26,764 nt of DNA, from the IMG/VR virus record IMGVR_UViG_3300031673_000398, positions 1 to 26,764 of that record. One strand, 5' to 3'. This stretch comes from a virus. Below, in pieces: positions 6,246 through 26,053 of this stretch. A program made the translations under genes and the position numbers. A model generated the notes under the pieces. It ran no database searches and was not told the DNA's origin. It saw nothing but the letters and a program-made list of their open reading frames with translations. Every line of letters begins with the position of its first letter. Position 1 is the first letter of the stretch.

Positions 6246-6247
6246 AC

Positions 6248-7620: not shown

Positions 7621-8461
7621 TTTCAAATTCCTCAAGTCTTTTACAATGGATATGTAGGTTAAAAATGGGTATTTTTTTACCTTTATAAATTAAAAACGGT
7701 GTTTTATTAAATTGTACTTCGAATTTTTTATGATGCAAAGCCTCCCCAACATAATGATGGAGTCCATACCACCCTGGTGAATGTCCAATATTTGTTCCAC
7801 CGAGATACTGTCCGTATGAAGCACCATCAAATAAACACTGAAGAGTGGAAAAATGATTATCATCTGGAAGTGTGGGTAAATAATCTATGTCTGGTGTATA
7901 TGTTTTAATAAGGTCAATAAGAACCATTTCTGAAAGATGATGTTGGTTTGTGAATTTACTAACAAAATTCTCTCCCTTTTCAATTAACTGTAGAAGTTTA
8001 TTGATAAATTTTGTGAAATGTTCTTGTTTTCTACAATATACTATTCCTGCGGATGCTAACTCTTTACCAACAGCTGTAAAATAAATACCACTTGGTAACT
8101 TTCTCAATATTTTAGGATTGTCATAAATTAAATTATCATATTCAAGATGTAAGAACTCTTCTATATTGTTTTTCTCTACATAAAGAAACAATGTATATAA
8201 TCTTAAAAGAGTTAATAACCAAAACGGGTCTTTATGATATGAAGGAAAGTTCTTTTTGCATAAATTATAAAATTCATCAACTTTTGGTTCCAAACCTTTT
8301 AGATCTGACATTGTAACAATATATGAATGCCCGAATTGTGCTGATTGTTCTACACTAGTCATTGCATATTCGGGTATTTTTTCAAAGGAATATTGAGATT
8401 TGTTTAATTCCTCAGAAAAACTAAAGTCGTTTATATTTAAGTGCGAATATAATATTTTCAT
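7610..8461 (-). CDS. Putative glycosyltransferase-like protein of the island
   Basis: About 283 residues, of a family I do not name with certainty. DPFWLLTLLRLYTLFLYVEKNN followed by FLHLEYDNLIYDNP (about residues 75-115) resembles a GT-A fold in which an acidic D-N/D motif after a hydrophobic strand holds the metal. Later AGIVYC and FDGASYGQYLGGT appear; the last phrase is highly patterned and probably part of the active site. The start is the ATG at 8461, with GAGG about 10 nt before it, rather than the in-frame TTG at 8467. It overlaps the 568-residue GT gene by 4 nt. Operon position supports a sugar-modification role. A non-enzymatic role is possible. Confidence 0.5.
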   Translation of the reverse strand: MKILYSHLNINDFSFSEELNKSQYSFEKIPEYAMTSVEQSAQFGHSYIVTMSDLKGLEPKVDEFYNLCKKNFPSYHKDPFWLLTLLRLYTLFLYVEKNNIEEFLHLEYDNLIYDNPKILRKLPSGIYFTAVGKELASAGIVYCRKQEHFTKFINKLLQLIEKGENFVSKFTNQHHLSEMVLIDLIKTYTPDIDYLPTLPDDNHFSTLQCLFDGASYGQYLGGTNIGHSPGWYGLHHYVGEALHHKKFEVQFNKTPFLIYKGKKIPIFNLHIHCKRLEEFENGE

Positions 8462-10164
8462 TTCCAATGATCCTCAAATCCAGCACACCATGAGTGCATT
8501 TGCACCATATCATAATCTTCTTTGTCTTTTAACAACTCTATTATTTCTTTTTCAGTCCAGGGTACCGCGTTTGGGTTATTAGAATGATCTTTTCCTGTGT
8601 GAAACTGTTTTGCTTTTTTTATTTTATATAAGTCTGGGTAATTTTTCATAACAAAGTTACCGTATATTTCTGGTTCTGCTATATGGCATGATGCCGATGT
8701 TATATCAAAGCTTTTTTCAGCAAACTCTTCTACAGTCATATCATATTTTCGCAACATTTCATTAATTATTGTCTTATTAAAGAAATTCATGTCACAAATA
8801 AACGTATGGTCTGCTACTTTATCCAATTCTAACATATATTTGTTAAAAAGAAAGTAAGGAAGGTGGTTTTGTCTCCATCCTTCATACCAAATTGGGTTAT
8901 CTCCATCAAAAAAGGTCATAGGTCTATTTAAAGTTGTATCTATATCTACTGTTAAATAATAATCTGTAGTAGTTACTTCTTGAAACAGTTTAAGAAATTG
9001 TTGAAAACACCAATTTGGTCTAAATTTCCATCTTAACGGGTCAATATTAGGCAAGACTTCCCTGTCAAGATGATAATAAATTGGAAAATCTACCTCAAAC
9101 TCGGGAATGGATTTAGGGGTACATATGTGTATGCTCTTTAATCCTTTTGCATTCTTGATTAATCCTCTTAACATATACTTTAATTTTATCATGTCTTTAG
9201 GGGCACACGGTAAAAATGCATCAAATTCTTTTTCTTTACTTGGTTGTTTTAAAATGATGTCAATTTCTTTAAAAGGTTTTACACCTTTACATATATAACC
9301 CTTAAACATATTTGATTCTAACTCTTTTTCATTGGGAAATGGTTTGTACCACTTAATACCATTAACTTCTGGTCTCTTTAAGAGAACATTATAAACATAG
9401 TTATACCACAACTGCTTACAGTTTATGTCTCTATTAAATATATCTTCATTATATTTGGCAAGAATATCGATATCAGTGCAAGAAGTACTAGAATGTTCGG
9501 GGTGAAATATAACAGGTGGTAATTTATTTAATGTAAATGTTCTTCCTAACAATTGACAGAGAGCAAAAAAATGTGTATCCCAGTATGGTTTACCTATTAA
9601 TTGTTCATGAAAGTTATTTCTGTTATTTATCCACCAGTCTTTTCTAAAACAAAACCCATCAAATCCGTGTACTGAATAAGATTCGGGTTTAAAATCTCCA
9701 TCTAAAGAATCAAAATCAAATAAGTGTAATTTTGACATTGGATAACAGTCATAATCAGAATTTTCTTGTATTTGTTTAATCATTCTGTCAGAAGCCACAA
9801 TATCATCATTTAAAAATATAATATGTGTACAATCTGTTTCTGCCAAGGCGTCAATTATATGTTTTACCGCTGGAATTCTTTTTTCTTTAATTGAATCCAT
9901 ATGGGTTTCGAACTCTTTCACATATAATTCTCTCAATCCGTGATGATTAAAGTAATCTTCGAGTATATCATGGCTATTTTTTGTCAAACTTTGCAATTTG
10001 GTAAAATTATCAATTTCAATATTCTCATCTTCATATTGAACATTAAATAAACTTACATTATCAAATTTATTTGATAACTTCTGCAATGCTTGTATACAAA
10101 GGAGTTGTCTATTCTCCAATTCATTGGTATTTTTATACGTATTTATTCCAATTGAAAATTTCAT
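8458..10164 (-). CDS. Two-domain GT-A glycosyltransferase fusion
   Basis: A 568-residue protein that reads as two glycosyltransferase modules. Module 1 (about 1-250) starts MKFSIGINTYKN, similar to the two following GT2-like genes, and has the metal motif HIIFLNDDIV near residue 115. Module 2 (about 310-568) begins EFDAFLPCAPKDM and contains YLTVDIDTTLNRP with a DID metal motif near residue 400, followed by ...WYEGWRQNHLPYF and a C-terminal Trp/His-rich region; this resembles the DUF6492-like group of putative GTs. Two active sites in one chain suggest stepwise addition of two sugars or of a repeating disaccharide. It overlaps the gene before it by 4 nt and the one after it by 4 nt (ATGA). 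Confidence 0.65.
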   Translation of the reverse strand: MKFSIGINTYKNTNELENRQLLCIQALQKLSNKFDNVSLFNVQYEDENIEIDNFTKLQSLTKNSHDILEDYFNHHGLRELYVKEFETHMDSIKEKRIPAVKHIIDALAETDCTHIIFLNDDIVASDRMIKQIQENSDYDCYPMSKLHLFDFDSLDGDFKPESYSVHGFDGFCFRKDWWINNRNNFHEQLIGKPYWDTHFFALCQLLGRTFTLNKLPPVIFHPEHSSTSCTDIDILAKYNEDIFNRDINCKQLWYNYVYNVLLKRPEVNGIKWYKPFPNEKELESNMFKGYICKGVKPFKEIDIILKQPSKEKEFDAFLPCAPKDMIKLKYMLRGLIKNAKGLKSIHICTPKSIPEFEVDFPIYYHLDREVLPNIDPLRWKFRPNWCFQQFLKLFQEVTTTDYYLTVDIDTTLNRPMTFFDGDNPIWYEGWRQNHLPYFLFNKYMLELDKVADHTFICDMNFFNKTIINEMLRKYDMTVEEFAEKSFDITSASCHIAEPEIYGNFVMKNYPDLYKIKKAKQFHTGKDHSNNPNAVPWTEKEIIELLKDKEDYDMVQMHSWCAGFEDHWK

Positions 10165-10937
10165 CTGTTTTTATGTTCTTTTAACCAATTTACTACAAAT
10201 TCTTTAGTATTCCCGCTAATATCTCTAGGTAAAACACCATGTTTTTTCTGAAACAATTTCCATTGTTCGGCAATTCTTTGTTCTCTACTCCCATCTGCTC
10301 TATTCTCTGCCTGTAACCTACTAACAGCTTCTGGATTGTTCATTATATAGTCATCTGAATTAGTAATATCAGGAAACCAACGGAACCCTGGATAATGAAA
10401 CTCCTGAGCTTCCCTATATAACATATCTATATCAAAAGGGTCTCTGAAACTAGTATCATAAAGACCTACTTTATTAAAACATTCTTGTCTATGATATGTA
10501 AATTCATTACAAGACTCACTATAAAATGAAACACCTACATTATTTTCATATTCAACTTGTAATTTTGGAGTTCGTTTTCCGGGTTCACCTGAATTCCAGG
10601 ATGTGCTGACGAACCCGAAGTATTTAATACCTGATTTTTTAGAAGCTTCTATATATTTGTTAAATATATTAGCATCTTTTATTATCATATCATCTTCAAT
10701 TAAAAAAATATGCTTACAATCTCTCTGCAATAGAAAATTCACAGCATCATTTCTACACATGGCAGGATAATAATTGTTTTTATGTTGTATCCAATTCACT
10801 TCATAGTCTTCTATATATGGATCACCACCATTTACAATAACTATCTCATCTATTTTTTCTAAAGGAATACTTTTGTAAAGTTCTTGAAGATAATTTTCCG
10901 ATTCATATGTAATAATTCCAATTCCTATTTTTTCCAT
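10161..10937 (-). CDS. GT2-like glycosyltransferase, paralogue A
   Basis: A 258-residue GT-A protein. The N-terminal strand KIGIGIITYESENYLQELYKS, then DEIVIVNGG and HIFLIEDDMIIKD (DD metal motif near residue 81) are standard family 2 features. The acceptor-side stretch GLYDTSFRDPFDIDMLYRE resembles the ED/W region. The C-terminus (W..F.KKHGVLPRDI) is repeated in the neighbouring gene at 10925-11713, so the two are tandem duplicates that have diverged. It overlaps that neighbour by 13 nt and the 568-residue gene by 4 nt. It is predicted cytoplasmic; donor and acceptor are unknown. Confidence 0.7.
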   Translation of the reverse strand: MEKIGIGIITYESENYLQELYKSIPLEKIDEIVIVNGGDPYIEDYEVNWIQHKNNYYPAMCRNDAVNFLLQRDCKHIFLIEDDMIIKDANIFNKYIEASKKSGIKYFGFVSTSWNSGEPGKRTPKLQVEYENNVGVSFYSESCNEFTYHRQECFNKVGLYDTSFRDPFDIDMLYREAQEFHYPGFRWFPDITNSDDYIMNNPEAVSRLQAENRADGSREQRIAEQWKLFQKKHGVLPRDISGNTKEFVVNWLKEHKNR

Positions 10938-11713
10938 CTATATATTTCCTGCAATTCTCTTTTAACTGTATCAATTCCCACATCTGGAATGTTCATTGGC
11001 ATATAACCGTGCTGTGTTTTAAAAAACTGGCATGCATTTATAAGGTTTTTATTCCATTCATGTTGGTCTTTTCTTATAACACTGCCTTCAAAATTCTCTT
11101 TTATATCTTTTATATAGTTATAACTCTCATGTATATCTGCAAAATACCAAAATGGTGGGTGTTTTTTGCAATCTTTATAAATTTTATAGGTATGTTCTAC
11201 ATGTTCCATTGCGTTTTGGTAATTTTCATCCATATACCCAACTCTTTCGATGCATTCTTTACGATAATAGCTCCAGGCCCCTAGAATATTATGATACAAA
11301 TCCACTTTTACATCCCCATAGTCTATAACCTTTTTTACAATAGGTTCCTGAGTTTGTTGATTTCTGTTATAAAAGCCATGGCCACCATAATTTAAATGCC
11401 AGATACCGCTAGTTTCCGCAGTTTTAATGTATTTGTCGCAAAGATTAGCGTCTTCGAACTTAATATCATCTTCACAAAGAAAAACATGGTCACAATTTCT
11501 TTCTTCAATTAGAAATTTTAAGGCTTTGTTTTTATTTTTAGCAACATTATCTATGCGTTTTGTGTAAATTACTTCATTTTTACCAGAAAAATAATCCTTT
11601 TCTCCACAAATAACCTCAACAACATGATCGGCCGGTGGCAATGTCTTAATACATTCTTTAAAAAACTCAGGTCTATTAACAGAGATAACACCAATTCCGA
11701 CTTTATTTGTCAT
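10925..11713 (-). CDS. GT2-like glycosyltransferase, paralogue B
   Basis: A 262-residue GT-A protein with the same plan as paralogue A: KVGIGVISVNRPEFFKECIKT at the start, HVFLCEDDIKFEDANLC (DD motif near residue 80), GYMDENYQNAMEHVEH in the acceptor region, and a C-terminus FFKTQHGYMPMNI matching FQKKHGVLPRDI of paralogue A. AAGG precedes the ATG at 11713, whose A is also the last base of the gp47 stop codon, so translation is coupled to gp47. It is the first gene of the glycosylation island in transcription order. Confidence 0.7.
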   Translation of the reverse strand: MTNKVGIGVISVNRPEFFKECIKTLPPADHVVEVICGEKDYFSGKNEVIYTKRIDNVAKNKNKALKFLIEERNCDHVFLCEDDIKFEDANLCDKYIKTAETSGIWHLNYGGHGFYNRNQQTQEPIVKKVIDYGDVKVDLYHNILGAWSYYRKECIERVGYMDENYQNAMEHVEHTYKIYKDCKKHPPFWYFADIHESYNYIKDIKENFEGSVIRKDQHEWNKNLINACQFFKTQHGYMPMNIPDVGIDTVKRELQEIYRWKK

Positions 11714-12804
11714 TATGATACCTTTTTATATAAATCCAATATGTAACTAGTCACTTCATCTTTGTATTCGATGTCTAATTCATTTACAAATTCTTTTATG
11801 CTCTGATTAATATCAACACCTGCGAATTCATAATCAATATCTAAATTTTCATCTCCAAACGTGTCAAATTCTACTTTAATATTGATAGGTTTTAAAGCAT
11901 TTAACTTTGAAATCAGTAATTCTATTCTATCTTCTTTGATTTTCTTATCTACATACAGTTTAATCCAATTATCCTTAAACGTTTCTTTTATTTCGGGGGT
12001 AATACCTGTCTTTGAAATCTCAGATAAAAATACTTTTTTGTGTTTTGGAGTAATATTGTTTTCGTAGAAATCATAATTGGAAGTTTCAACATCTAAAATG
12101 TAATAACCCTTGCTCGTTCCACTATCACCCCAGTCCAATTCATATGCACTGCCTGTATATAATATATGTCCTTTTTTATATTTTCTATCATCTCTAATAT
12201 GAAAGTGACCTGTAATAATTAATGGAGCCTTATCAAGAATTTCTTCAGAGGTAAACCCATGTGTACATACTTTAGACTTGTTTAAATGAAACCCTTGTAA
12301 TTCAAAATGACCAAAAATTATATCACTTTCTGGTATTTCTTCTAAATTCACGCCCCAGGGACATAAAGTTATGTTTTTACCAAATGCTTGGAAGGTTGTA
12401 ACCTCATCAGCAATGAAAACATTTTCCCATTCATTAAGGAAACCTAAACTATGTACTCTCGAATTGTTTTTATAGTATGCATCATGGTTACCTACCAAAC
12501 CTAAAATATTAAAATCTTTAAATTTGTGAAATAATTTACAAACAGTGTGCATAGTATGAACATTAATTTCATTTCTATGATGAAAGAAGTCACCAGGTAT
12601 GACAATGTCTTTTATACCATGTTTATTACACTCTGATATAAACCAATCAGCCCAATCATGCAAAATTTCATGCCAGGTGTGACTGTTATGGTGCACACCA
12701 GCATGTAAATCGCTTGCAATTGCAATTCGGTTGTGTTTAATTCCAGGTATTTTCTTCGTCATAACATGTATGTCTTCTTGTGTGTTGTCCGTTCTCTTGT
12801 TCAT
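11713..12804 (-). CDS. 47: Recombination endonuclease subunit gp47 (Mre11/SbcD-like)
   Basis: Mn-dependent nuclease partner of gp46. All calcineurin-like phosphoesterase motifs are visible: ASDLHAG, IVIPGDFFHHRNE, LGLVGNHD, IIFGHFE and IITGHFHIR, followed by GSAYELDWGD. At 363 residues with this start it is close to T4 gp47 (339). An in-frame ATG at 12762 (MTKKIPGIKHN) would remove 14 residues with no domain content and cut the overlap with gp55 from 68 to 26 nt; neither start has a strong Shine-Dalgarno, so the true start is undecided. The C-terminal region (about 240-363) is the less conserved capping/partner-binding part. Confidence 0.94.
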   Translation of the reverse strand: MNKRTDNTQEDIHVMTKKIPGIKHNRIAIASDLHAGVHHNSHTWHEILHDWADWFISECNKHGIKDIVIPGDFFHHRNEINVHTMHTVCKLFHKFKDFNILGLVGNHDAYYKNNSRVHSLGFLNEWENVFIADEVTTFQAFGKNITLCPWGVNLEEIPESDIIFGHFELQGFHLNKSKVCTHGFTSEEILDKAPLIITGHFHIRDDRKYKKGHILYTGSAYELDWGDSGTSKGYYILDVETSNYDFYENNITPKHKKVFLSEISKTGITPEIKETFKDNWIKLYVDKKIKEDRIELLISKLNALKPINIKVEFDTFGDENLDIDYEFAGVDINQSIKEFVNELDIEYKDEVTSYILDLYKKVS

Positions 12805-13216
12805 CCATTAATCTATTATAAATTTCATCTCTATAATTTTCAACAGCATCTCTTTCCTTCTTTTCAATTTTAATTCTGTTAACCATTGCATGAAAAGCCA
12901 CTTTAGTAAAATACATGAACGCATTCCCTTTCTTACCATTCTTTCCTACTTTCTCAGGGTCGTATTTATATACCTTATTTCGAATGGTTGCTATCATTTT
13001 TTCTCTTGCATCACCTACCATTTCATCTCTGTAAGAATAATTGATAAAATTTGGGCTGTAACTTAATTTGTTTGCGATTTTATCAACGCAAATACATACT
13101 TCATCTGATAATATATCAGTTCTGTAGCTTTCTGCAATTAATTCTTCAAATATATCTGGATTAACATAATATTCTGATTTTTTACCTCTTTTTCTAGGCT
13201 TGGATATTTCTAACAT
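12737..13216 (-). CDS. 55: Late-transcription sigma factor gp55
   Basis: A small sigma-like protein (159 residues; T4 gp55 is 185) that directs host RNA polymerase to late promoters (TATAAATA) with the sliding clamp and gp33. The central block YSYRDEMVGDAREKMIATIRNKVYKYDPEK...GNAFMYFTKVAFHAMVNRIKIEKKER (about 70-130) aligns with T4 gp55 ([51 protein letters not shown]), the sigma region 2-like core. The N-terminus is basic. The acidic C-terminal clamp-binding tail of T4 is shorter here. It overlaps uvsW by 23 nt and gp47 by up to 68 nt. The late promoters on the plus strand are its expected targets. Confidence 0.9.
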   Translation of the reverse strand: MLEISKPRKRGKKSEYYVNPDIFEELIAESYRTDILSDEVCICVDKIANKLSYSPNFINYSYRDEMVGDAREKMIATIRNKVYKYDPEKVGKNGKKGNAFMYFTKVAFHAMVNRIKIEKKERDAVENYRDEIYNRLMDEQENGQHTRRHTCYDEENTWN

Positions 13217-14636: not shown

Positions 14637-15032
14637 TTACATGGTTTCCAACTTCATAATCTCAACGATATTCTTATAATCCCATGTAATGGATGAAAAT
14701 ATACGTTCTAACTTCTCAAGATACTCAATAATATCTTTATATTCATCTATTTGTTCTTGTATCTTTGAAATACTCTCATGTTTTGAAGCTGCCGCGTTAA
14801 TTGATGCATCAGAAAGATTAACCCTACCCTTTTCTTTAAGTTTTACAGCTATATCAGCTATTGCAGCCCTCTTTTGTCTTATTAATTTAGATTCGTCTCT
14901 CTTTGCATTAATTAATCTTGCTACCCACTTATGTTTAATAGAGGGCAACTTCATAGACTTGTCATGAATAGTAACTTCATCGACTCTTGCATCATCTTCT
15001 GCTTCAATTATATATTGCTCTAGTAAATTCAT
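14637..15032 (-). CDS. uvsY: UvsY-like recombination mediator
   Basis: A 131-residue protein (T4 UvsY is 137) that loads the UvsX recombinase on gp32-coated single-stranded DNA. Visible features are a short acidic N-terminus, IKHKWVARLINAKRDESKLIRQKRAAI (like the SKWLNKHSSIKKEMLRIEAQKK block of T4), a long helix, and a C-terminal EYLEKLERIFSSITWDYKNIVEIMKLE similar in kind to T4 LQYWGILLDFCSGALDAIKSRGFAIKHIQDM. Similarity is moderate, but length, charge pattern and position before uvsW agree. It is the first gene of the leftward unit, reading away from the divergent region 15033-15122. Confidence 0.8.
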   Translation of the reverse strand: MNLLEQYIIEAEDDARVDEVTIHDKSMKLPSIKHKWVARLINAKRDESKLIRQKRAAIADIAVKLKEKGRVNLSDASINAAASKHESISKIQEQIDEYKDIIEYLEKLERIFSSITWDYKNIVEIMKLETM

Positions 15033-15122: not shown

Positions 15123-15611
15123 ATGACATCAACCCCGAAATTCGATAAAATTTATGAACAAGTAATGGAACAAAATGTTGCAGCACCAGGTGGTGTATTT
15201 GGTGATAACGCAGGAACAGGTGTGGACCTTGCTAAAAGCAGTGATACATATGCACCAGGTGATGCCAGATTGCCTAAAGCATTAGGTAAGGTTCAAAAAA
15301 GAAGCTTCCCTGAGTCTATATTTGACGGAAAAAAGAAAAAAGTAAGAAAAAAGAAGCAATCTGCTAACCCAGGACCTCTAAAAGAAGAAAAAGAATCTAT
15401 TAAAGGTGGTTTAGCAGATGGTATGTCGTTAAAAGACATAGCTGATAAGCATAATGTAGAGGTTTCAGAAATTAGAACACAATATGAGATGGGTGTTAAA
15501 GTAGAAATGGAACATACTGAGAATATTAAGCAAGCTCAAGAGATTTCTAAGGACCATTTAGAAGAAGATCCAAAATATTACTCTAAATTGAAAGATATGG
15601 AGCAAAAGTAA
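15123..15611 (+). CDS. DUF5661-like protein with basic patch and HTH-like segment; possible packaged head protein
   Basis: A 162-residue protein of unknown role. N-terminal peptide MTSTPKFDKIYEQVMEQ is amphipathic and carries I-Y-E at 10-12, an [I/L]-x-E prohead protease-type site. A strongly basic run (KKKKVRKKKQ, 70-79) follows. Residues about 95-122 (GLADGMSLKDIADKHNVEVSEIR) read as a helix-turn-helix. The C-terminal HTENIKQAQEISKDHLEEDPKYYSKL (131-156) is the DUF5661 signature (HT...A..IA.DHL.EDP.YY). AGGAG lies 6 nt before the start. The combination suggests a DNA-binding protein, perhaps carried in the head. The domain match is good; the function is not known. Confidence 0.6.
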   Translation: MTSTPKFDKIYEQVMEQNVAAPGGVFGDNAGTGVDLAKSSDTYAPGDARLPKALGKVQKRSFPESIFDGKKKKVRKKKQSANPGPLKEEKESIKGGLADGMSLKDIADKHNVEVSEIRTQYEMGVKVEMEHTENIKQAQEISKDHLEEDPKYYSKLKDMEQK

Positions 15612-16027: not shown

Positions 16028-16690
16028 ATGAGTAACAAAAAATGTGTATATTGCGGATTACCGCTAAGAGGAAAGGGTTGTCCCTACGGACCTAACAAAG
16101 TTCATGTAGTAATTGAACCAAATAAATGTATTTATTGTGGATTACCACTTAGAGGCAAAGGATGCGCATATTCACCTTCAGGGTCACATATTATGTCATC
16201 AGAATTTGGTTTGTTACAAGCTGAATCAACCAAGGAACACTTTATTATGAAATATATAATGGAAAAACTAAGAGAACCTGTCACTGAATCCAAGGCATAT
16301 GAACTTGGTATTATAAATGAACAAGGTTCTCAAATTAAAGACCCGTCAACACACCAGGAAAGGAAAGCATGGTCACCTTTGAATCAGTACTTACTAAGAT
16401 TAAAGAGAGTATTTGGTGAAAAGTTGGATGTATTAAACACTGAACTATATATGGAGAATGCAAGTAACTTAATTTCTTCAGAGGATCTTGTAGATGCTAA
16501 TTGGAATGCTGAAAAATACTTAGAAAAGGTAGAAATTGAAGAAAACTTTAAAAACTCCCTTGCAATTAAGTTAGATGAATATTATAATCTATTAAAAGAA
16601 GCTGAACACAATGGTATTTCAGCTGAGAAAATAGAGAAAATCTTATTATCTACCTTAAATGAAAATATCTCCAATAAATCTACCGGCTGA
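16028..16690 (+). CDS. Double zinc-knuckle protein of unknown function
   Basis: A 220-residue protein. Its first 54 residues hold two copies of CxYCGLPLRGKGCxYxPxxxH: Cys6, 9, 18 and His26, then Cys34, 37, 46 and His54, both with spacing C-x2-C-x8-C-x7-H, so each should bind one zinc. The rest is helical and acidic; KEHFIMKYIMEKLREPVTESKAYELGIINEQG (about 69-100) looks like a compact helical domain. The two repeats differ at most third codon positions, which points to selection for the protein motif rather than a recent copy. Nucleic-acid binding is likely; no family is recognised. AGGA lies about 13 nt before the ATG. Confidence 0.6.
   Translation: MSNKKCVYCGLPLRGKGCPYGPNKVHVVIEPNKCIYCGLPLRGKGCAYSPSGSHIMSSEFGLLQAESTKEHFIMKYIMEKLREPVTESKAYELGIINEQGSQIKDPSTHQERKAWSPLNQYLLRLKRVFGEKLDVLNTELYMENASNLISSEDLVDANWNAEKYLEKVEIEENFKNSLAIKLDEYYNLLKEAEHNGISAEKIEKILLSTLNENISNKSTG
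16043..16189 (+). repeat. Tandem zinc-binding repeat within gene, period 84 bp
   Basis: Two in-frame units of a C-x2-C-x8-C-x7-H motif, 28 codons apart. The core CGLPLRGKGC is identical at the protein level while the codons differ at several third positions (for example ggattaccgcta against ggattaccactt). Confidence 0.8.
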
Positions 16691-17257: not shown

Positions 17258-17265
17258 TATAAATA
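17258..17265 (+). promoter_or_regulatory. T4-type late promoter, copy 1
   Basis: Exact TATAAATA, the element recognised by gp55-programmed RNA polymerase, lies in the intergenic gap 21 nt before the ATG at 17287. It runs into AAATATTTTAACGGAGACA, which supplies the leader and a GGAG Shine-Dalgarno. The same leader occurs before the gene at 24672, which makes a chance match unlikely. It drives the six-gene operon 17287-22176. Confidence 0.75.
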
Positions 17266-17286: not shown

Positions 17287-17532
17287 ATGAATACATTTGA
17301 TACACTATTTGAACAAATTATGGGACAAGATGCCACTAAGAAAGCAAAACAAAAAATTGCAGATGCAGAGGGCATTGAAGCACAAGCAGCACAAGATGAA
17401 GTTGATGGAAAAGATTCCACAATTAAAAAATCTGCAGCTAATAAACTTAAAGCAACAGGAACTAAAGAGCTTGCAGCAGATTTAACAAAGAAAGCTAAAG
17501 AAATCGAAGCACAAACTAAAACAGGATTTTAA
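17287..17532 (+). CDS. Small Ala/Lys-rich protein, possible internal head or core protein
   Basis: An 81-residue protein, almost wholly charged and helical, rich in Ala, Lys, Glu and Gln, without hydrophobic core signals beyond the N-terminus. It begins MNTFDTLFEQIMGQDA, an amphipathic start with L-F-E at 7-9 as a possible prohead protease site. Size and composition resemble the small prohead core or internal proteins of T4 (gp67, gp68, IPs), but there is no sequence match I can point to. It is the first gene after the late promoter at 17258 and ends 1 nt before the next start. Confidence 0.55.
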   Translation: MNTFDTLFEQIMGQDATKKAKQKIADAEGIEAQAAQDEVDGKDSTIKKSAANKLKATGTKELAADLTKKAKEIEAQTKTGF

Positions 17533-17533
17533 T

Positions 17534-18013
17534 ATGAAGAAATTTGAAAACGTTTTAGAAAAATATAGACAAGAGGTTGAACCTAAGGAAGTTAAACTCA
17601 GTGAATTTTATAAATCCATTGCAAAGAAAAATCCTATTAACATATATTTAACAGAACAAGATGCTCCACCAGAAGAAGCACCTTCTATTGACCCTGGTGG
17701 TCCTCCACCTATGCAAATGAATTCACCTGGTGGTCTTGGACCAGCTGATGAACCTGAAGAACCTGCAGAAGTTGAACTTGAAAACATTCCTTATGCTTTA
17801 ATGGCTTGGTATGCATTCAAGGCTCTTTTAATTAATCCATCAGAAATTACTAGTTCTGAATATTATGATCAACTTCAAGATTTGACCGGCGGTGGTGATA
17901 AAGCTAAAATTGATTCACCAGAAAAAGGCGTTAGAATCTTTCAAGTTATTGAAAAGATTATCGATGATAAAGAAACACCATCTAATTCTGATATACCACA
18001 AACTGCTGAATAA
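17534..18013 (+). CDS. Acidic proline-rich protein, possible head cargo or core protein
   Basis: A 159-residue protein of unknown family. The start MKKFENVLEKYRQ is amphipathic. L-S-E (22-24) and L-T-E (39-41, in NIYLTEQDAPPEEAP) are [I/L]-x-E sites. Residues about 43-85 are a low-complexity acidic Pro/Gly linker (PPEEAPSIDPGGPPPMQ..., DEPEEPAEVE). The C-terminal part (about 88-145) looks folded: IPYALMAWYAFKALLINPSEITSSEYYDQL and GVRIFQVIEKIIDD. The stop overlaps the next ATG by 1 nt. It could be a scaffold/core component, or an adaptor with a flexible arm. Confidence 0.55.
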   Translation: MKKFENVLEKYRQEVEPKEVKLSEFYKSIAKKNPINIYLTEQDAPPEEAPSIDPGGPPPMQMNSPGGLGPADEPEEPAEVELENIPYALMAWYAFKALLINPSEITSSEYYDQLQDLTGGGDKAKIDSPEKGVRIFQVIEKIIDDKETPSNSDIPQTAE

Positions 18014-18903
18014 TGAAATTTAAAGAATACCTCGTCGAATATAAAATTTTTCAACACATCCTCATGGAAGGTGGTGCCATGGAGGGTGTTGGTGCTATTC
18101 ATATAGATGAAATCGAACCCACTTTAATTAAGATACAAAATAGCTTAATTAGAGAGTTAGGACAAGAAACATTTAATAGATACTTTGACGGTGGTTCATT
18201 ATTAGATAACGCTCTTGGAAGTGTTCAGAAAAAGTTGTTTTCTGGAGATATGGACATTGCTATTAATATAGATAGATCAGAAATACCAGAGTTTGTCTCG
18301 GTTTTACAAAGAATTCCTGAGGTTAAGGAAGTTAAGACTGGTTCTGTTATTATGATGTCAGTGGAAATTGATGGTAAATCTGATGTAGAACCACCTGAAG
18401 GCAAGGCAAGAACTGGATTAGTTCAAATTGACTTCATGCCTGGTGAAAAACAATGGATGAAAACATTTTATCACTCACCCAACCTTTTAAAAGGTGAAAG
18501 TAAGTATGGTGGTATATATAGAACACTTCTTTTAACAGCTATTACATCTAATGTTGACACTAAAGTTGGTGAAATAGATCCTAATGATCCTATGGAAAGA
18601 CCTGAATTTATTGAAAGATATAAATGGGGTTCAAATGGTGTAGTGAGAGTAAGAAGAACACCTGGAAAAAATGCCAAGGGTTATCTAAAAAAGAATGATG
18701 ATGAAGTCATTGCAGGCCCTTATACTAATCCACAAGAAATTGTTAAGGTATTAAATTTAGGATCAACAGAAAACCTTAATAGTTATGAATCCTTGCGCAA
18801 AACTATCGAAGAAAGATATGAACCTGAATTAGTTACAAAGATTTTAGAGAGTTATAAAAAGTTATTGGAAAACCAAGGACTTGAAATACCAGGAGATTTA
18901 TGA
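18013..18903 (+). CDS. Pol-beta-superfamily nucleotidyltransferase with capsid-targeting-like N-terminus
   Basis: A 296-residue protein. The core GSVQKKLFSGDMDIAINID (69-87) fits the hG[GS]...DhD pattern of pol-beta-type nucleotidyltransferases, with Asp79 and Asp81 as metal ligands, and VQIDFMPG supplies the third carboxylate, Asp140. Such enzymes add nucleotides to RNA, DNA, protein or small molecules. The first 19 residues, MKFKEYLVEYKIFQHILME, carry two [I/L]-x-E sites (7-9, 17-19) before GGAMEG, as in T4 internal-protein targeting peptides. Its stop overlaps the ligase-like gene by 4 nt (ATGA), so the two products are probably made in similar amounts. The target is unknown. Fold assignment is fairly confident; packaging is inference. 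Confidence 0.7.
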   Translation: MKFKEYLVEYKIFQHILMEGGAMEGVGAIHIDEIEPTLIKIQNSLIRELGQETFNRYFDGGSLLDNALGSVQKKLFSGDMDIAINIDRSEIPEFVSVLQRIPEVKEVKTGSVIMMSVEIDGKSDVEPPEGKARTGLVQIDFMPGEKQWMKTFYHSPNLLKGESKYGGIYRTLLLTAITSNVDTKVGEIDPNDPMERPEFIERYKWGSNGVVRVRRTPGKNAKGYLKKNDDEVIAGPYTNPQEIVKVLNLGSTENLNSYESLRKTIEERYEPELVTKILESYKKLLENQGLEIPGDL

Positions 18904-20042
18904 ATTTTAAAGAATTTCGAAGAAGTGAAACATTAATCACAGAAGGCGCTGAAGCACGTATACAACACGCTGAAGATTTAATCTTTTGGGAAGGTTCACA
19001 AGGTGCTTTAAGAGCATTAGACGCTTTGGAATCACTCTCCAGAAGTGGTATTAATCACACTTCTGTTAAATGGGATGGTTCACCGAGTTTGATATTTGGG
19101 AATGATGAAAACGGAGAATTCGTTCTTACAGACAAGTCTGGTTTCTACGCAAAAGGGTATGACGGTAAAGCAAAATCCCCCGATGAATTAAGAGAAATGT
19201 TTTTAAACCGTTCTGGTGGTAAAAATAGAGAAAATTCAAGTTATGTTGAATTTGCAAATAAGATGGCACAAATTTTTTACATCTTTAAAAATGCAATTCC
19301 CAAAGGTTATAAAGGATTTTTTAAAGGTGATCTTCTATATTATAACAAACCAGGAATTAAAAACGGACATTATATATTTCAACCAAACGTAGTTCAGTAT
19401 GAAGTAGATTTAACATCAGATTTAGGTAAAAGAATTTCTAAATCTGAAGCTGGTGTTGTAATTCATAGAGCAGTTGATTTTGATGGAAATGAACAACCAT
19501 TAAAAGATTTGAATATATTTAAAGGAAATGATCTTTTAGTGATTCCTCCTGTATTCGTAGAACATAAAGCCCAAGTAGATTTAGAAAATATTAAAAGTGT
19601 TAAGAAAATTATTTCACAAAATAACCTTGCTATTAACTCTCTTATAGATGAAAATATATTAAAGCAAAAACAAATAGCTGATTTTCCACAAGTATTATAC
19701 AAATATTTAAATTCCAAAGTTGATACAGGACTTGAAAATATAGGATCTGATTTTTTTGATTGGCTTGCAACACAAAACATTTCCACCAGAAAAAAACAAA
19801 ACATAACACAACATATTCAAGAAAATTCACAAATCTTCAATGTTTTATGGCAAATAGTAAACATGATAATGGACATAAAGGACGATATTGTTCAACAATT
19901 TGACAATAATGCACAAGTGGTTAAGCAAACAATGGCTGGTGAGCGAGGTGGCGAAGGATATGTATACTCAAATAAAAACGGTGATATTAAATTAGTACCC
20001 AGAAGAACATTTTCTCGCATAAACAGGAGCATAGAAAGATGA
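18900..20042 (+). CDS. DUF6267-like protein with covalent nucleotidyltransferase (ligase/capping) motifs
   Basis: A 380-residue protein. HTSVKWDGSPSLIFG contains K57-W-D-G60, the KxDG motif I whose Lys becomes adenylylated or guanylylated in DNA/RNA ligases and capping enzymes. FVLTDKSGFYAKGYDGK follows, then GFFKGDLLYY (about 139-148, motif III-like), EAGVVIHR (about 183-190, motif IV-like, with His where Lys is usual) and a C-terminal KLVPRR that could be motif V. I recognise this as the phage DUF6267 type. The N-terminus MNFKEFRRSETLITEG has I-T-E at 13-15 followed by Gly, the best match here to the T4 targeting consensus. Coupled to the genes before and after by 4-nt overlaps. An ATP-dependent ligase role is plausible but unproven. 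Confidence 0.65.
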   Translation: MNFKEFRRSETLITEGAEARIQHAEDLIFWEGSQGALRALDALESLSRSGINHTSVKWDGSPSLIFGNDENGEFVLTDKSGFYAKGYDGKAKSPDELREMFLNRSGGKNRENSSYVEFANKMAQIFYIFKNAIPKGYKGFFKGDLLYYNKPGIKNGHYIFQPNVVQYEVDLTSDLGKRISKSEAGVVIHRAVDFDGNEQPLKDLNIFKGNDLLVIPPVFVEHKAQVDLENIKSVKKIISQNNLAINSLIDENILKQKQIADFPQVLYKYLNSKVDTGLENIGSDFFDWLATQNISTRKKQNITQHIQENSQIFNVLWQIVNMIMDIKDDIVQQFDNNAQVVKQTMAGERGGEGYVYSNKNGDIKLVPRRTFSRINRSIER

Positions 20043-21559
20043 GAACACTAAATGAAGCGTATGATAGAGTATACACCAAACAATATCGCCCACCTAAAAA
20101 CCTTCAAAGTATATATCTTGAGCAAGTTGCTGATGATGAACAAGATGAAGAAATTGAAGATATCAATATTCCAAAAAAAGATGCTTTAATTAAATTATCA
20201 GGTTTATCCAGCGAATCTGCACTTCTTAAACTAGCAGAACTCTATGATATTATAAAAAATGATTTGCGTTTTACTGAAATTTTAAAGAACCAAGTTTATT
20301 TTTCTAGAGGTTCTGAAAAATCCAGAATATACAGAAACGAAGATATAATTAATCAAAACACACTACTTGATATTTCTAAAAATGATTTCGATAATGGTGA
20401 ATTGATTATTACGTATGCTGGTAACATAAGAAAAATTAGAACACCAGCACCTGGTGCTAAAAGAATAGCAGAATTTAATAAAATTTCAGATTCACATGTT
20501 AATAAAACATATGAATCGATTAAAAATAAAAATACTATTAACAGTACTCATACTTCAACTCTTAGGATATTGTGTTTATATGATTTGTTTATTGAATATC
20601 CATCACTTGTTAAATTAACACAGAAAGTAGCGGCTGGACTTGGAGCAGAATTTGCACAAGTTGAAGAATTTAATAAAGCACTTGAAGATCTTCCACCTGT
20701 AAAATTCTTTATAAAACATAATTTAAAAACTGAAAATCAAAATATCCAATTTAATAAAGCTAAAAAAATTGAAGGTTCAGGAAAGGCAGATATTGAGCTA
20801 ATTAACTCAAAAACAGGAAAAGCGGTATATTGGATTTCTTTTAAAGATGGAAAATATGATGTAAAAAAAGATGCGTCTTTTCAACAATGGGGCTCTCTAA
20901 GAACCCTCTATAATAATGACAGTAGTATTAATTCAATCATTGATATATTTTTAGATAATATAAGTGATTTATTGCCTTCTGTTAATTATCCACCTTCTCA
21001 AAAAGAACTTGAAATTATTAATAAAAACCCTCTAATGAAAACATTATGGGATGCAAATTCTTATAAATTTAATAAGAACGGTACAGAGTTTAAAGCAAAT
21101 AAAAATTCTGTTAAAAAAATATATTTCTATACCAAAGGCACACCTGAATATTATATAGATCTCTTTAATAAAAAAAATAAAATGGAACAGAATTCAATTT
21201 CAAATCTTGCTTTAAAATCAATTTATGGGTCTGAATATGAAATGGGAAAGAATTCACCATTTTCTAGCGAGAATGTTAATATAGTTCTTCAAACACCAAA
21301 CGCTCTTTCTCTAAGACCGTTAATAAAAGAAGAAGAAATAGAGGCTGTTGTATTAGACATCAAACCAGGAGCTCACCTTATTAAAAATCCACAAATGCCC
21401 GAATCAGAAAATTATCTTCCTTGTTTATATAGCAGATTTACAGAAGCAATGTTTTTCTTTTTTAATAATAATACTGAATGTATTTTAGGAATACGACCTC
21501 TCGTTTATCCTATATCTAAAGCAGCCTCTGGTAAGTCAAAGGAAATCTTTTTAAAATGA
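20039..21559 (+). CDS. Large unknown protein with possible PD-(D/E)XK nuclease core
   Basis: A 506-residue protein, third in the coupled set. The N-terminus MRTLNEAYDRVYTKQY has L-N-E at 4-6; an acidic linker follows (ADDEQDEEIED, 31-41). The one suggestive motif is GSGKADIELINSKTGKAVYWISFKDG (246-271): Asp251 on a strand, then a strand ending S-F-K269, the arrangement of PD-(D/E)XK nucleases with Ser in place of Glu/Gln. The following KDASFQQWGSL fits the helix that comes next in such folds. The C-terminal 130 residues show alternating strands (AVVLDIKPGAHLI, CILGIRPLVYPI). No family is recognised. Its overlap of 4 nt on both sides ties it to the ligase-like and NMNAT-like genes. Confidence 0.55.
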   Translation: MRTLNEAYDRVYTKQYRPPKNLQSIYLEQVADDEQDEEIEDINIPKKDALIKLSGLSSESALLKLAELYDIIKNDLRFTEILKNQVYFSRGSEKSRIYRNEDIINQNTLLDISKNDFDNGELIITYAGNIRKIRTPAPGAKRIAEFNKISDSHVNKTYESIKNKNTINSTHTSTLRILCLYDLFIEYPSLVKLTQKVAAGLGAEFAQVEEFNKALEDLPPVKFFIKHNLKTENQNIQFNKAKKIEGSGKADIELINSKTGKAVYWISFKDGKYDVKKDASFQQWGSLRTLYNNDSSINSIIDIFLDNISDLLPSVNYPPSQKELEIINKNPLMKTLWDANSYKFNKNGTEFKANKNSVKKIYFYTKGTPEYYIDLFNKKNKMEQNSISNLALKSIYGSEYEMGKNSPFSSENVNIVLQTPNALSLRPLIKEEEIEAVVLDIKPGAHLIKNPQMPESENYLPCLYSRFTEAMFFFFNNNTECILGIRPLVYPISKAASGKSKEIFLK

Positions 21560-22176
21560 ACTTATTCGATAAACTTTACAAAAAAATAATTAATGAACAA
21601 ACAGGAAAAGCAGCTGTTGTTACATATGCAAGAATGAACCCTATTACAATAGGCCATAAAAAGCTTGTTGATAAAGTGGTTTCTGATGCTGAAGAAATAG
21701 GTGCTACACCAATTATATTTCTTTCACATACACAAAAACCCAAAACAGATCCTCTTTCATTGGACCAAAAGATTTATTTCTTTAAAAAACTATTTCCTGG
21801 CGTAAAAGTTGGTAATGATATGTTCAAAGGACAATTTACTCCACCTGCTGCTTTGGAAGAATTATCAAAACATGGTTACAAGGATATCATTTTTATAGTA
21901 GGGGATGATAGAGTATCAAGTTTTGGATTCTTACAAAAATATAATGGAGTCCCTGACAAAACCGGTAAAATTGCATATACATTTGATAATTTAGAAATCA
22001 GATCTGCGGGTGAACGTGACCCAGATGCCGAGGGTGTAGAGGGAATGAGTGCTTCAAAAATGAGAGCAGCTGCAGCAGAAGGTGATTATGAATTATTTGC
22101 TCAAGGAATTCCAACTGAAGATGAAAATTTAATCAAGGAACTCTACGAAGCTGTTCGTTCTGGCATGGGCTTGTAA
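21556..22176 (+). CDS. NMN adenylyltransferase-like nucleotidylyltransferase with targeting-like N-terminus
   Basis: A 206-residue HxGH-superfamily nucleotidylyltransferase. VVTYARMNPITIGHKKLVDK (21-40) has T-I-G-H at 31-34, the ATP phosphate-binding motif (T/HxGH); IIFIVGDDRV is the core strand, and GMSASKMRAAA (163-173) corresponds to ISSTxxR. The most likely reaction is NMN (or a related mononucleotide) plus ATP to a dinucleotide, i.e. NAD synthesis; a cytidylyl- or other adenylyltransferase role is possible. The first 15 residues, MNLFDKLYKKIINEQ, precede the domain and include I-N-E at 12-14, so cleavage would leave an intact enzyme. It is the last gene of the six-gene late operon. Confidence 0.72.
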   Translation: MNLFDKLYKKIINEQTGKAAVVTYARMNPITIGHKKLVDKVVSDAEEIGATPIIFLSHTQKPKTDPLSLDQKIYFFKKLFPGVKVGNDMFKGQFTPPAALEELSKHGYKDIIFIVGDDRVSSFGFLQKYNGVPDKTGKIAYTFDNLEIRSAGERDPDAEGVEGMSASKMRAAAAEGDYELFAQGIPTEDENLIKELYEAVRSGMGL

Positions 22177-22226: not shown

Positions 22227-23027
22227 ATGGAAAACAATAATATAATTAATGTGTCGGAATTTTTCCTTTCGATACAAGGGGAGGGTGCTACAACAGGTAT
22301 ACCTTCTATCTTCATTCGTCTTAGTGGGTGCAATTTTGCATGCGGTCTTAACCAAATGTTCGAGAAAGGTCTAGCCACCTGGAAGTGTGACTCAGAAAAG
22401 GTTTGGAAAACTAATTCACCAATGACATATGAAGAATTATACGCTTCATTTGAAAGTTGGGGTGAAATTTCTAACATAATTGAAGGTAGAACACATCTAA
22501 TTTGGACTGGTGGTGAACCAACCATGCCACAACATGTTAAATCCATCGTTGGTTTTCTTGATTTCTTCACTGACTTACATCCAGAAGCAGTTGGTCAGAT
22601 GTATAATGAGATTGAAACCAATGGTTCCATTCCAGTATTTCAAAAAGGGTTTTACAAACCAGAAGAAATCGATGGGATTGTCGTGGGCCCTTATATACAA
22701 CAAATTAATTGTTCTGCAAAATTGGCAAATTCAGGAATGGGCAAACCAATGAGAATTAACAAGAGAGCAATTGAACAAGTTTTAGAACACCCGGAAGGTT
22801 ATTTTAAATTTGTAATTAGTTCTGAACCAGATATTCTTGAAATACAAGAAGATTTTGTCAAACCTTTTAATATACATTGGAAAAAGATTATTTTAATGCC
22901 GGCTGTGGATAACAGAGATGATTTGCCCGCAGCAACTAAGTTTTTATTCGATATGTGCAAGAAATATGGCTATAGAGGTGTTACAAGAAGCCACATACTG
23001 GCATGGGATCGTGTCACTGGGGTTTAA
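22227..23027 (+). CDS. queE: 7-carboxy-7-deazaguanine synthase (radical SAM)
   Basis: Converts 6-carboxytetrahydropterin to CDG in the preQ0/queuosine pathway; 266 residues. FLSIQGEG (13-20) and the radical SAM region RLSGC35NFAC39 are typical, but the third cluster Cys is at 54 after the 14-residue stretch GLNQMFEKGLATWK, giving C-x3-C-x14-C instead of C-x3-C-x2-C. The CDSEKVW that follows suits an insertion-bearing QueE class. LIWTGGEPTMP (91-101) is the GGEP SAM contact. Phage QueE can serve 7-deazaguanine DNA modification or host tRNA queuosine; no other pathway gene (queC, queD, folE, dpdA) is in this window. It starts a separate promoter unit with dCMP deaminase 3 nt downstream. Confidence 0.9.
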   Translation: MENNNIINVSEFFLSIQGEGATTGIPSIFIRLSGCNFACGLNQMFEKGLATWKCDSEKVWKTNSPMTYEELYASFESWGEISNIIEGRTHLIWTGGEPTMPQHVKSIVGFLDFFTDLHPEAVGQMYNEIETNGSIPVFQKGFYKPEEIDGIVVGPYIQQINCSAKLANSGMGKPMRINKRAIEQVLEHPEGYFKFVISSEPDILEIQEDFVKPFNIHWKKIILMPAVDNRDDLPAATKFLFDMCKKYGYRGVTRSHILAWDRVTGV

Positions 23028-23030
23028 TCG

Positions 23031-23501
23031 TTGAATATCAACAGGTTAACTAAAACTGAATATGGATGTTTGATGGCTTTATCAGCGTCCACCCGGTCAG
23101 AAGGTAGAAAAACTAGAGTAGGTTGTGCAATTGAAGACCACGATGGTAGAATTATTGCGACTGGATATAATGGTTATGCACAAGGATTTAATTTAGATGC
23201 TGTAATTAAAAATAATGAAGAATCAAGACCTTATTATATACACGCAGAAACAAATGCCCTAAGTTTAATTCAAAGAGGACAAGGTAAAGTGCTATATTGC
23301 ACACATTCACCATGTATTTCTTGTGCACAAAACATAATTGCCCATAAAATTCAAGAAATTGTGTATATTAATTTATATGAACACGTTGAACAAGATGTTA
23401 ATTTCAAGTCATTGTTTGAAAGTTACAATATTAAATATCGCAACGCAACAGTATTAGAAAAAAATAACATTCTTGAAAGTTATATAAACAAAAACTTATA
23501 A
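23031..23501 (+). CDS. dCMP deaminase (zinc deoxycytidylate deaminase)
   Basis: Deaminates dCMP to dUMP for dTTP synthesis, as T4 gene cd. It has 156 residues with the zinc site H71-A-E73 and PC95-x2-C98, the proton-shuttle Glu at 73, and GYNG (about 46-49) of the dCMP deaminase group. The start is TTG (23031), 3 nt after the queE stop and preceded by GGGG; the first ATG in frame would remove the N-terminal helix (LTKTEYGCLMALSAS), so TTG is favoured. The C-terminal 40 residues lack other motifs. Free cytosine deaminase cannot be excluded, but the phage context favours dCMP. Confidence 0.85.
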   Translation: MNINRLTKTEYGCLMALSASTRSEGRKTRVGCAIEDHDGRIIATGYNGYAQGFNLDAVIKNNEESRPYYIHAETNALSLIQRGQGKVLYCTHSPCISCAQNIIAHKIQEIVYINLYEHVEQDVNFKSLFESYNIKYRNATVLEKNNILESYINKNL

Positions 23502-24671: not shown

Positions 24672-25628
24672 ATGAAATTTAACAAAGCAGTAAAAATATT
24701 ATTAAATGAAGAGGTACAATCTCTTAACGAATTTGCAAGAATTGCTGACCATGAACAATTGCAAGGAATGGTTACAGCTGATTATGATAAAGCAGCTGTA
24801 ACTGCTGCAATCAACGAATATTTTAAAATTAAACCAAAAGGTTTCTTTTCTAAAGCAATCAATGGTAAAAAAGATTTAGATATTGGTAATATTTTTATCA
24901 AATCCATAGACGAAGTAATTGAAAAGATGGATTTGGATTCGTCTTATGGTCTTAGAGCTGCTATGTTTGATTTCCACGGACATAATAATAACGTTGATAA
25001 AAACATTTTAGCACAAGAGGTGTGGAAAAATATTAATGAAGAATTAGGAACCAATATTCCTAAAACAAAAATTAAATCAACCTTACTTCAAGTAAAAGGT
25101 TTCATGAAAGCAAATTCTTCTTTATTTTTAACTGATGAAGAAGCACAAGTAAATGGTCGTGGTGTTTCAAAAGGAACAAAAGGCTCTGCTAAACCAGCTA
25201 CAGATTCAAAAAACTACAAGGTTATTAAAGACACCAGTGAAACAGAAATTCAAGAAGCTGTTACAGATCAATTTGACCGCAGAGTTGCACGAGCTGTTAA
25301 ACTTCTAGGACAAGGTGAAGTCCTCTCCATTGCAGAAATCAAGAGTTTCTTTGATACCTTTGATTATGATACAATGACCATCGTAAAATTCCTAGTGGAT
25401 ATGGGTATTATCGAACCTTCTGATGAAGTAGTCCACTCTCCAGAAGAAAATGAAACAGAAGGGGAAGATGAAGTTGATGGAAAAGAAGTTAAAGACTTAG
25501 ATCAAAGCTTTTTTGCAGATAAGGGTATAAAAAAATTCTCAAGCGTTGACTCTGTCAGATCAGAAATAGGTGATACTATTGGAAGAACTGGATTCAGAGG
25601 TTCGCCTGAAGGCTATGGTGACTATTAA
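24672..25628 (+). CDS. Unknown 318-residue protein with targeting-like N-terminus
   Basis: No family recognised. The start MKFNKAVKILLNEEVQSLNEF is amphipathic with L-N-E at 11-13. Residues about 30-160 look alpha-helical with a FDFHGHNNN segment near 98. A Gly/Ser/Lys linker (GRGVSKGTKGSAKPA, about 162-176) separates it from a second domain at about 195-255 (DQFDRRVARAVKLLGQGEVLSIAEIKSFFDTFDYDTMTIVKFLVDMGII) with a winged-helix-like alternation. The tail is strongly acidic. Late promoter copy 2 lies 16 nt upstream. The stop overlaps the next ATG by 1 nt. Head or virion protein, packaged cargo, or DNA-binding protein are all possible. Confidence 0.5.
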   Translation: MKFNKAVKILLNEEVQSLNEFARIADHEQLQGMVTADYDKAAVTAAINEYFKIKPKGFFSKAINGKKDLDIGNIFIKSIDEVIEKMDLDSSYGLRAAMFDFHGHNNNVDKNILAQEVWKNINEELGTNIPKTKIKSTLLQVKGFMKANSSLFLTDEEAQVNGRGVSKGTKGSAKPATDSKNYKVIKDTSETEIQEAVTDQFDRRVARAVKLLGQGEVLSIAEIKSFFDTFDYDTMTIVKFLVDMGIIEPSDEVVHSPEENETEGEDEVDGKEVKDLDQSFFADKGIKKFSSVDSVRSEIGDTIGRTGFRGSPEGYGDY

Positions 25629-26053
25629 TGAATAGTAAATTTGAACAACTTATTTCTGAACAGATGTCTTCTATCACAAAGACAAAGACTATGAGATTTC
25701 CTCGTCAAATTCAGTTCAGTGAAGAGTTCATGCAAGCCATTGAAAAAGAATATTACACACAAGTAATATCTGAAAGCCCAGAAGCACCTGTTCGTAATAG
25801 ACCCCAAAAGTTCATTAAGGCTCTTGAGTTTGTTGTTGCTGATATTGTTAAAAATGAAGAAACCAATAAAGGCAAATACAGGATTAATGAAGACACAGAA
25901 CACTATTCAGCAACATCAGAAAATTCACCTAAACAAGATGAAGGTAAAGATGTAAAGAAAACAGAAAAGAATAAAGAAGAAGTCTTAAAGATGAATTCTA
26001 AACCTCTTAAAGAAGGTTGTTCAAAAAGAATGTCCAAGAGCCAACGCAGATAA
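25628..26053 (+). CDS. Unknown 141-residue protein with targeting-like N-terminus
   Basis: No family recognised. The start MNSKFEQLISEQMSS has I-S-E at 9-11. Residues about 20-80 look folded (MRFPRQIQFSEEFMQAIEKEYYTQVI; FIKALEFVVADIVKNE), then comes a charged Glu/Lys/Ser linker and a basic end (KPLKEGCSKRMSKSQRR). It is coupled to the preceding gene by a 1-nt overlap. Its last 33 bases overlap the end of the convergent primase gene on the other strand. Confidence 0.5.
   Translation: MNSKFEQLISEQMSSITKTKTMRFPRQIQFSEEFMQAIEKEYYTQVISESPEAPVRNRPQKFIKALEFVVADIVKNEETNKGKYRINEDTEHYSATSENSPKQDEGKDVKKTEKNKEEVLKMNSKPLKEGCSKRMSKSQRR

Follow-up and report, generated by a model that had tools for sequence, protein, structure and literature searches.

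A late operon of a T4-like phage with a predicted polymerase–ligase pair, a candidate capsid-delivered end-repair module

The internal proteins of phage T4 (IPI-III, Alt), which are anti-host proteins, have a leader that the prohead protease cuts off after (L/I)xE, and are injected with the DNA. African swine fever virus carries in its virion, for genome repair, a small palm-thumb polymerase, Pol X, together with a ligase and an apurinic/apyrimidinic endonuclease. In bacterial non-homologous end joining, LigD joins a polymerase of the primase type to a ligase with an OB domain in one chain, and in RNA repair, T4 Rnl1 and Pnkp restore and reseal tRNAs cut by host anticodon nucleases. Here, we describe a gene block in a viral sequence of 26,764 bases from IMG/VR (record IMGVR_UViG_3300031673_000398), the whole of which was analysed and is called the window below. 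Judged from its sequence, the window is T4-like phage DNA, and the central genes of the block encode a polymerase beta-like protein and a ligase-like protein of the family DUF6267. At a probability of roughly 55%, we consider that the block encodes a capsid-delivered module for the healing and sealing of ends.

The locus resembles each of the closest described systems in part. Its proteins share an N-terminal (L/I)xE leader with the T4 internal proteins, which are neither polymerases nor ligases; packaging of the proteins described here is a prediction. With the African swine fever virus set it has in common a small palm-thumb polymerase that would act with a ligase and a nuclease, but that virus is eukaryotic, its ligase has an OB domain, and the likeness is one without shown sequence relation. 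Polymerase and ligase occupy a single chain in 14 fused loci of relatives, as in LigD, whose polymerase and ligase are of other types. The tested cyanophages have the same family (PF19782, as T4-GC71) and the same ligase–cytidylyltransferase neighbourhood (T4-GC71 and T4-GC190) behind gp41; they differ in that no polymerase gene was found in the cyanophage records tested whole, and their DUF6267 proteins usually bear no leader. In other phages, RlaP (PF10127), likewise a polymerase-beta superfamily protein, is paired with nucleotidyltransferase-fold RNA ligases, which sets a precedent for a proposed role in RNA repair (PMC7824862). The polymerase described here differs from RlaP in belonging to another family by hidden Markov model (HMM), in a second domain that resembles the thumb of family X, and in being late and leader-bearing.

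The enzymes of the operon and their linkage

The plus strand of the window holds a run of six co-directional genes (17287-22176), which in the list of open reading frames (ORFs) encode proteins of 81, 159, 296, 380, 506 and 206 amino acids, the last four joined by 4-nucleotide overlaps. Three of these, at 18013-18903, 18900-20042 and 20039-21559, had been described in an earlier note as one coupled late operon of a nucleotidyltransferase, a ligase-fold protein and a nuclease-like protein; the ORFs are real, and so are their shared direction and overlaps. The fourth enzyme gene of the operon, at 21556-22176, had been overlooked. The label 'late' is supported, because an exact T4-type late promoter, TATAAATA, lies at 17258-17265 on the plus strand, 29 nucleotides before the first ATG of the operon at 17287, and because the same phage encodes a gp55-like late sigma factor (12737-13216, minus strand; phrog_234, E 5e-22). 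The motif matches four times in the window over both strands, and the match at 17258-17265 is the only one on the plus strand.

The 296-residue protein (18013-18903, plus strand) is predicted to have the palm and thumb fold of DNA polymerases beta and lambda. Its AlphaFold2 model reaches a mean predicted local distance difference test (pLDDT) of 90.5 with 46 sequences, and Foldseek lists DNA polymerases beta and lambda as its PDB matches (best E 1.8e-5, probability 1.00), at template modelling scores of about 0.33-0.41 by query length. In VIA, residues 27-259 of the model align to residues 146-335 of polymerase beta, which comprise palm and thumb (Z 10.1, root-mean-square deviation (rmsd) 3.6, 165 residues). 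The GS...DxD plus D pattern of family X is present as G69, S70 (S/T), D79, D81 and D140. The three aspartates, which the earlier note had placed correctly and which are the predicted catalytic residues, are conserved in more than 98% of relatives: D79 in 131/133, D81 in 133/133 and D140 in 132/134. Their codons lie at 18247-18255 (D79 to D81) and 18430-18432 (D140) on the plus strand.

The 380-residue protein (18900-20042, plus strand) matches PF19782 (DUF6267, E 5e-34), its only Pfam match above cut-off; the RNA ligase family PF09414 gave no match at E<=1. Among the phage records searched, 468 contain a match to DUF6267 (T4-GC71 in cyanophages), which previously had no assigned function and is named in none of the papers searched. 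The AlphaFold2 model (pLDDT 92.6, 67 sequences) has, as predicted, the adenylation-domain fold of the covalent nucleotidyltransferase (ligase/capping) superfamily. VIA lists a ligase in every one of its 50 rows (Z 8.5 to 6.3), with RNA ligases on top, a result that concerns the ligase families among the matches listed and makes no statement on OB-containing or other families outside them. The best row is the Naegleria RNA ligase (Z 8.5, rmsd 4.2, 180 aligned), followed by T4 Rnl1 (7.2), REL1 (7.1), T4 Rnl2 (6.9), and a tRNA ligase and DNA ligases (6.7-6.6); since rows within 1 Z are ties, the choice between RNA and DNA is not settled by VIA. The earlier note had set the two folds as a test, and both were found in the predicted models.

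The motif blocks which that note had read from the ligase-like sequence also stood up, as motifs I, III, IV and V are in order and near-invariant in relatives. In motif I (K57-W-D-G), K, D and G are present in 169/169 and W in 165/169; Lys57, the predicted adenylation lysine, is encoded at 19068-19070 on the plus strand. G143 and D144 of motif III (G143-D144-L145) are found in 161/162 and 162/162, motif IV (E352-G353) in 155/155, and K364 of motif V (K364-x-V366-x-R368) in 155/155. Between motifs III and IV lies a helical insert of about 110 residues (228-336). A weak PNKP_ligase match (PF16542, E 0.011) was dropped, being below cut-off and aligned mostly on this insert. Motif V lies at 364-368 and the chain stops 12 residues on, after one helix (368-379), so there is no OB domain of the DNA-ligase type.

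The genes of these two proteins are linked far beyond chance. Single-sequence scans yielded few relatives and profile scans were needed; the latter found in IMG/VR at least 589 relatives of the ligase-like and at least 308 of the polymerase-like protein, and 80 from each set were retained. Among 80 loci fetched by the polymerase alone, a ligase-like gene is adjacent in 74 and within 3 kb in two more, which makes 76 with the ligase at no more than 3 kb on the polymerase's strand, most commonly with a 4-nucleotide overlap; the remaining four are two fusions, one locus with no room for the gene and one without it. Across all loci, both domains share one ORF in 14 cases, in the same order. From the side of the ligase, 31/82 loci have no polymerase gene. 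Moreover, PA5oct, Phosso and Atu_ph07 have a different KxDG ligase-like protein beside the polymerase or near it, which indicates that the partner stays ligase-like although the family changes. Usually found upstream of the block in relatives are a primase, a DnaB-type helicase and a small phrog_11854 protein ('virion structural protein'). One IMG/VR contig (L002) is identical to the window over the polymerase and ligase genes, and a scan of genome contigs gave two loci only, in contigs of metagenome-assembled genomes with phage-like gene order.

The 506-residue protein (20039-21559, plus strand) carries a phrog_13937 domain (E 4.9e-10). In S-PRM1, the ligase gene is immediately preceded by a member of this family (2e-117), and a gene in the PA5oct cluster also matches it (1e-5). 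The 506-residue protein and its DLP6 counterpart, encoded upstream of the ligase, have the pattern SxKDG...FQQW in common, with SHKDG...FQQW in both S-PRM1 and DLP6. Close relatives of the 506-residue protein were not found in phages or IMG/VR by single-sequence scans. Alignment with the S-PRM1, DLP6 and PA5oct proteins outlines a possible active-site core (D...SFK) from D251 to K269, encoded at 20789-20845 on the plus strand. The PD-(D/E)XK core that had been suggested is thus retained in part: D251 and S267-F268-K269 are shared with relatives, but serine replaces the acidic residue, and the protein is possibly a PD-(D/E)XK-like nuclease of an SxK variant. Sequence searches of the PDB with the polymerase-like, ligase-like and nuclease-like profiles gave no credible match, and an NCBIfam scan gave no informative one.

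The 206-residue protein (21556-22176, plus strand) matches phrog_3041 (E 3e-52) and phrog_395 (E 7e-34), and also CTP_transf_like at E 0.0044, below the Pfam cut-off. Its family has TxGH and SxxKxR motifs with invariant G33-H34, S165 and R170, by which it is classed as a TxGH nucleotidylyltransferase of the NMNAT/PPAT type in the cytidylyltransferase/NMNAT superfamily. In cyanophages, its relatives usually come after the ligase gene. Cytidylyltransferase fusions to a ligase (L094), an apparent ATP-grasp domain (L085) and a P-loop kinase-like domain (L086) were also seen. A regular-expression match had presented L085 as a cytidylyltransferase–nuclease fusion, which is wrong, its C-terminal part resembling an ATP-grasp domain.

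Leaders and predicted packaging in the head

Both central proteins begin with a predicted leader that is disordered in the model up to a putative prohead-protease site. That of the polymerase-like protein comprises residues 1-19 (18013-18069, plus strand) and ends ILME/GG, the slash marking the predicted cut; residues 1-18 have pLDDT <50 with a helix at 3-16, and E19 is conserved in 123/123 relatives. The leader of the ligase-like protein comprises residues 1-15 (18900-18944, plus strand) and ends LITE/GA, with pLDDT <50 for residues 1-16. The TxGH nucleotidylyltransferase has a leader ending IINE/Q. The first two genes of the operon, both on the plus strand, show the same feature: the 81-residue protein (17287-17532), possibly a head or core protein, has a short leader with LFE/Q, and the 159-residue protein (17534-18013), possibly a capsid internal protein, has a 41-residue leader ending LTE/Q; no family match for the latter was found in protein-family scans.

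An (L/I)xE site followed by A, G, S or Q within the first 50 residues is present in 6/6 operon genes versus 4/25 other genes of the window (hypergeometric 2.9e-4, with Gln allowed after the cut). The stricter [LI]xE[AGS] in the first 40 residues occurs in 94% of polymerase-like and 79% of ligase-like relatives, which are not independent sequences, compared with 3-4% of internal windows and with 0% for the helicase. The window itself is a genome fragment; in 11/13 relatives' records, Peptidase_S77, the T4-type prohead protease, is encoded. In addition, the polymerase-like protein of PA5oct is annotated as a structural protein by electrospray ionization tandem mass spectrometry. A relative of the 206-residue protein was detected by mass spectrometry in S-SM1 virions (T4-GC190, PMC3037559), and another in S-CREM2 virions (ORF154, three peptides), for which the authors regard carry-over as possible (PMC10665884). 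Motif statistics, the protease genes of relatives and published proteomics of relatives' virions thus support the targeting-like N-termini proposed in the earlier note.

Leader-like features also appear outside the operon and in relatives. In the window, a UvsY-like protein and two unknown proteins (14637-15032, 15123-15611 and 25628-26053) have leader-like N-termini with (L/I)xE or similar sites, so these proteins may be head-targeted too. Two loci encode a long leader-type domain, polymerase and ligase in one chain (L164:4594-7911 and L167:2-2290; 1105 and at least 762 residues). An unassigned protein family of about 264 residues is encoded downstream of the polymerase and ligase genes in 70 loci, and 84% of its members have a leader site, examples being L019:2758-3699, Phosso 448 and Atu_ph07 AUZ94876.

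Proposed function and rival explanations

The proposed module would work as follows. Late in infection, the enzymes would be made with short N-terminal leaders that direct their entry into the prohead, where a T4-type protease would cut the leader off after (L/I)xE. The processed enzymes would be packaged alongside the genome and reach the next cell together with it, as the motifs and the virion proteomics of relatives suggest. There, the polymerase beta-like protein may first fill missing nucleotides at a break, and the ligase-fold protein, its Lys57 charged with a nucleotide probably from ATP, may seal the same break. The 506-residue protein would probably trim ends, and the TxGH nucleotidylyltransferase may serve cofactor or nucleotide supply, e.g. 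NAD-type chemistry.

As to the substrate, nicked or gapped phage DNA at entry is given about an even chance, and is somewhat favoured over the main alternative, cleaved RNA (tRNA, for instance), which we regard as possible but less probable. For the latter, the pair would restore and reseal tRNAs cut by host anticodon nucleases, a role in keeping with the RNA ligases as nearest folds, with the published RlaP precedent, with the weak full-length match of the Atu_ph07 KxDG protein to the RNA ligase family PF09414 (E 0.002), and with a P-loop kinase-like protein (PF06414/PF13671) that adjoins the ligase cluster in HTVC008M. However, by HMM the polymerase-like protein is not RlaP: 0/46 members of its family match PF10127, HMM-HMM alignment with RlaP covers 14 columns only, and Lak-B5 and Atu_ph07 encode RlaP at other places of their genomes, away from the polymerase gene. 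Its palm-plus-thumb architecture, with a Pol X-type thumb, is that of DNA polymerases, and the block neighbours the replicative helicase and primase.

This same neighbourhood could mean that the ligase-like protein is an ordinary replicative ligase for Okazaki fragments and the operon a piece of replication machinery, with no injected kit. No PF01068, PF01653 or PF09414 ligase was found in eight Kyanoviridae genomes (S-WAM1, S-PRM1, MED4-213, DSL-LC02, S-CAM9, Melnitz, HTVC008M and S-SM1), so DUF6267 could be the only phage ligase there and may supply what these genomes appear to lack. Yet a canonical DNA ligase is present in DLP6 and in the polymerase-bearing phages PA5oct, Lak-B5, Phosso, Atu_ph07, G001 and G002, and in those polymerase-bearing phages the ligase-like protein would thus be an extra, specialised enzyme; together with the late promoter, the leader sites and the lack of an OB domain, this makes a replicative role unlikely. 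It is far less probable still that catalysis has decayed, or that the proteins have a structural role in the head and retain no more than the fold. Such a reading could draw on the name of the neighbouring phrog_11854, 'virion structural protein', and on the listing of the PA5oct relative as structural, but the catalytic residues show next to no variation among 130-170 divergent relatives, a constraint that a structural role alone does not call for.

Several results weigh against the capsid-delivered module. The family X profiles PF14792 and PF14791 gave no accepted match among 46 members of the polymerase-like family (one at E 0.19, in the palm), and an HMM-HMM alignment to bacterial PolX brings the motifs of palm and thumb into register without reaching significance, so the family X assignment rests on the structure model. 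Foldseek placed a fungal tRNA ligase first for the ligase model, at E 0.036 with no match below, and the missing OB domain and the RNA ligases as best structural matches favour RNA. The serine before the lysine makes the nuclease assignment of the 506-residue protein tentative. The polymerase leader has about 5 residues (MILNEGG) in many relatives, too short for a usual capsid-targeting sequence, and part of the site conservation may therefore be structural. Published cyanophage virion data do not name the ligase-like protein. Finally, the earlier note expected its three genes to keep company in relatives, which holds for the polymerase–ligase pair, even in fused form; all three (or four) enzyme genes were found together in this virus only, leaving aside contig L002, and relatives carry subsets.

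DUF6267, widespread in marine cyanophages, now has a predicted fold, a predicted active site and a closely tied polymerase beta-like partner. If the pair is carried in the head and injected, the cell receives break-repair enzymes from the phage itself, and the mending of injected genomes (or host tRNAs) in the first minutes becomes directly testable. A bolder version, which we put forward only tentatively, is that phage heads carry a dedicated polymerase-X-plus-ligase machine, sometimes as one fused polypeptide, that would repair the incoming genome before any gene expression. Bacterial viruses would then have a counterpart to the repair enzymes that some large eukaryotic viruses package in their virions, and DUF6267 would have its first function.

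Neighbouring genes in the window

The minus strand of the window encodes the UvsY-like protein, a DNA helicase, SbcC and SbcD, and the late sigma factor. The genes of SbcC (2224-4020) and SbcD (11713-12804) are about 7.7 kb apart. The gap between them (4020-11713) holds a dehydrogenase family gene (phrog_9582), whose product resembles IMP dehydrogenase/GMP reductase at its N-terminus, a methyltransferase and two glycosyltransferases, and is perhaps an inserted cassette for nucleotide or surface sugar chemistry. Downstream of the operon, at 22227-23501, a QueE-like radical S-adenosylmethionine gene has a dCMP deaminase-like gene directly behind it, which starts with TTG; both are without a leader site. 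The N-terminus of a 220-residue protein (16028-16690) has two near-identical zinc-finger-like repeats, CxYCGLPLRGKGC.

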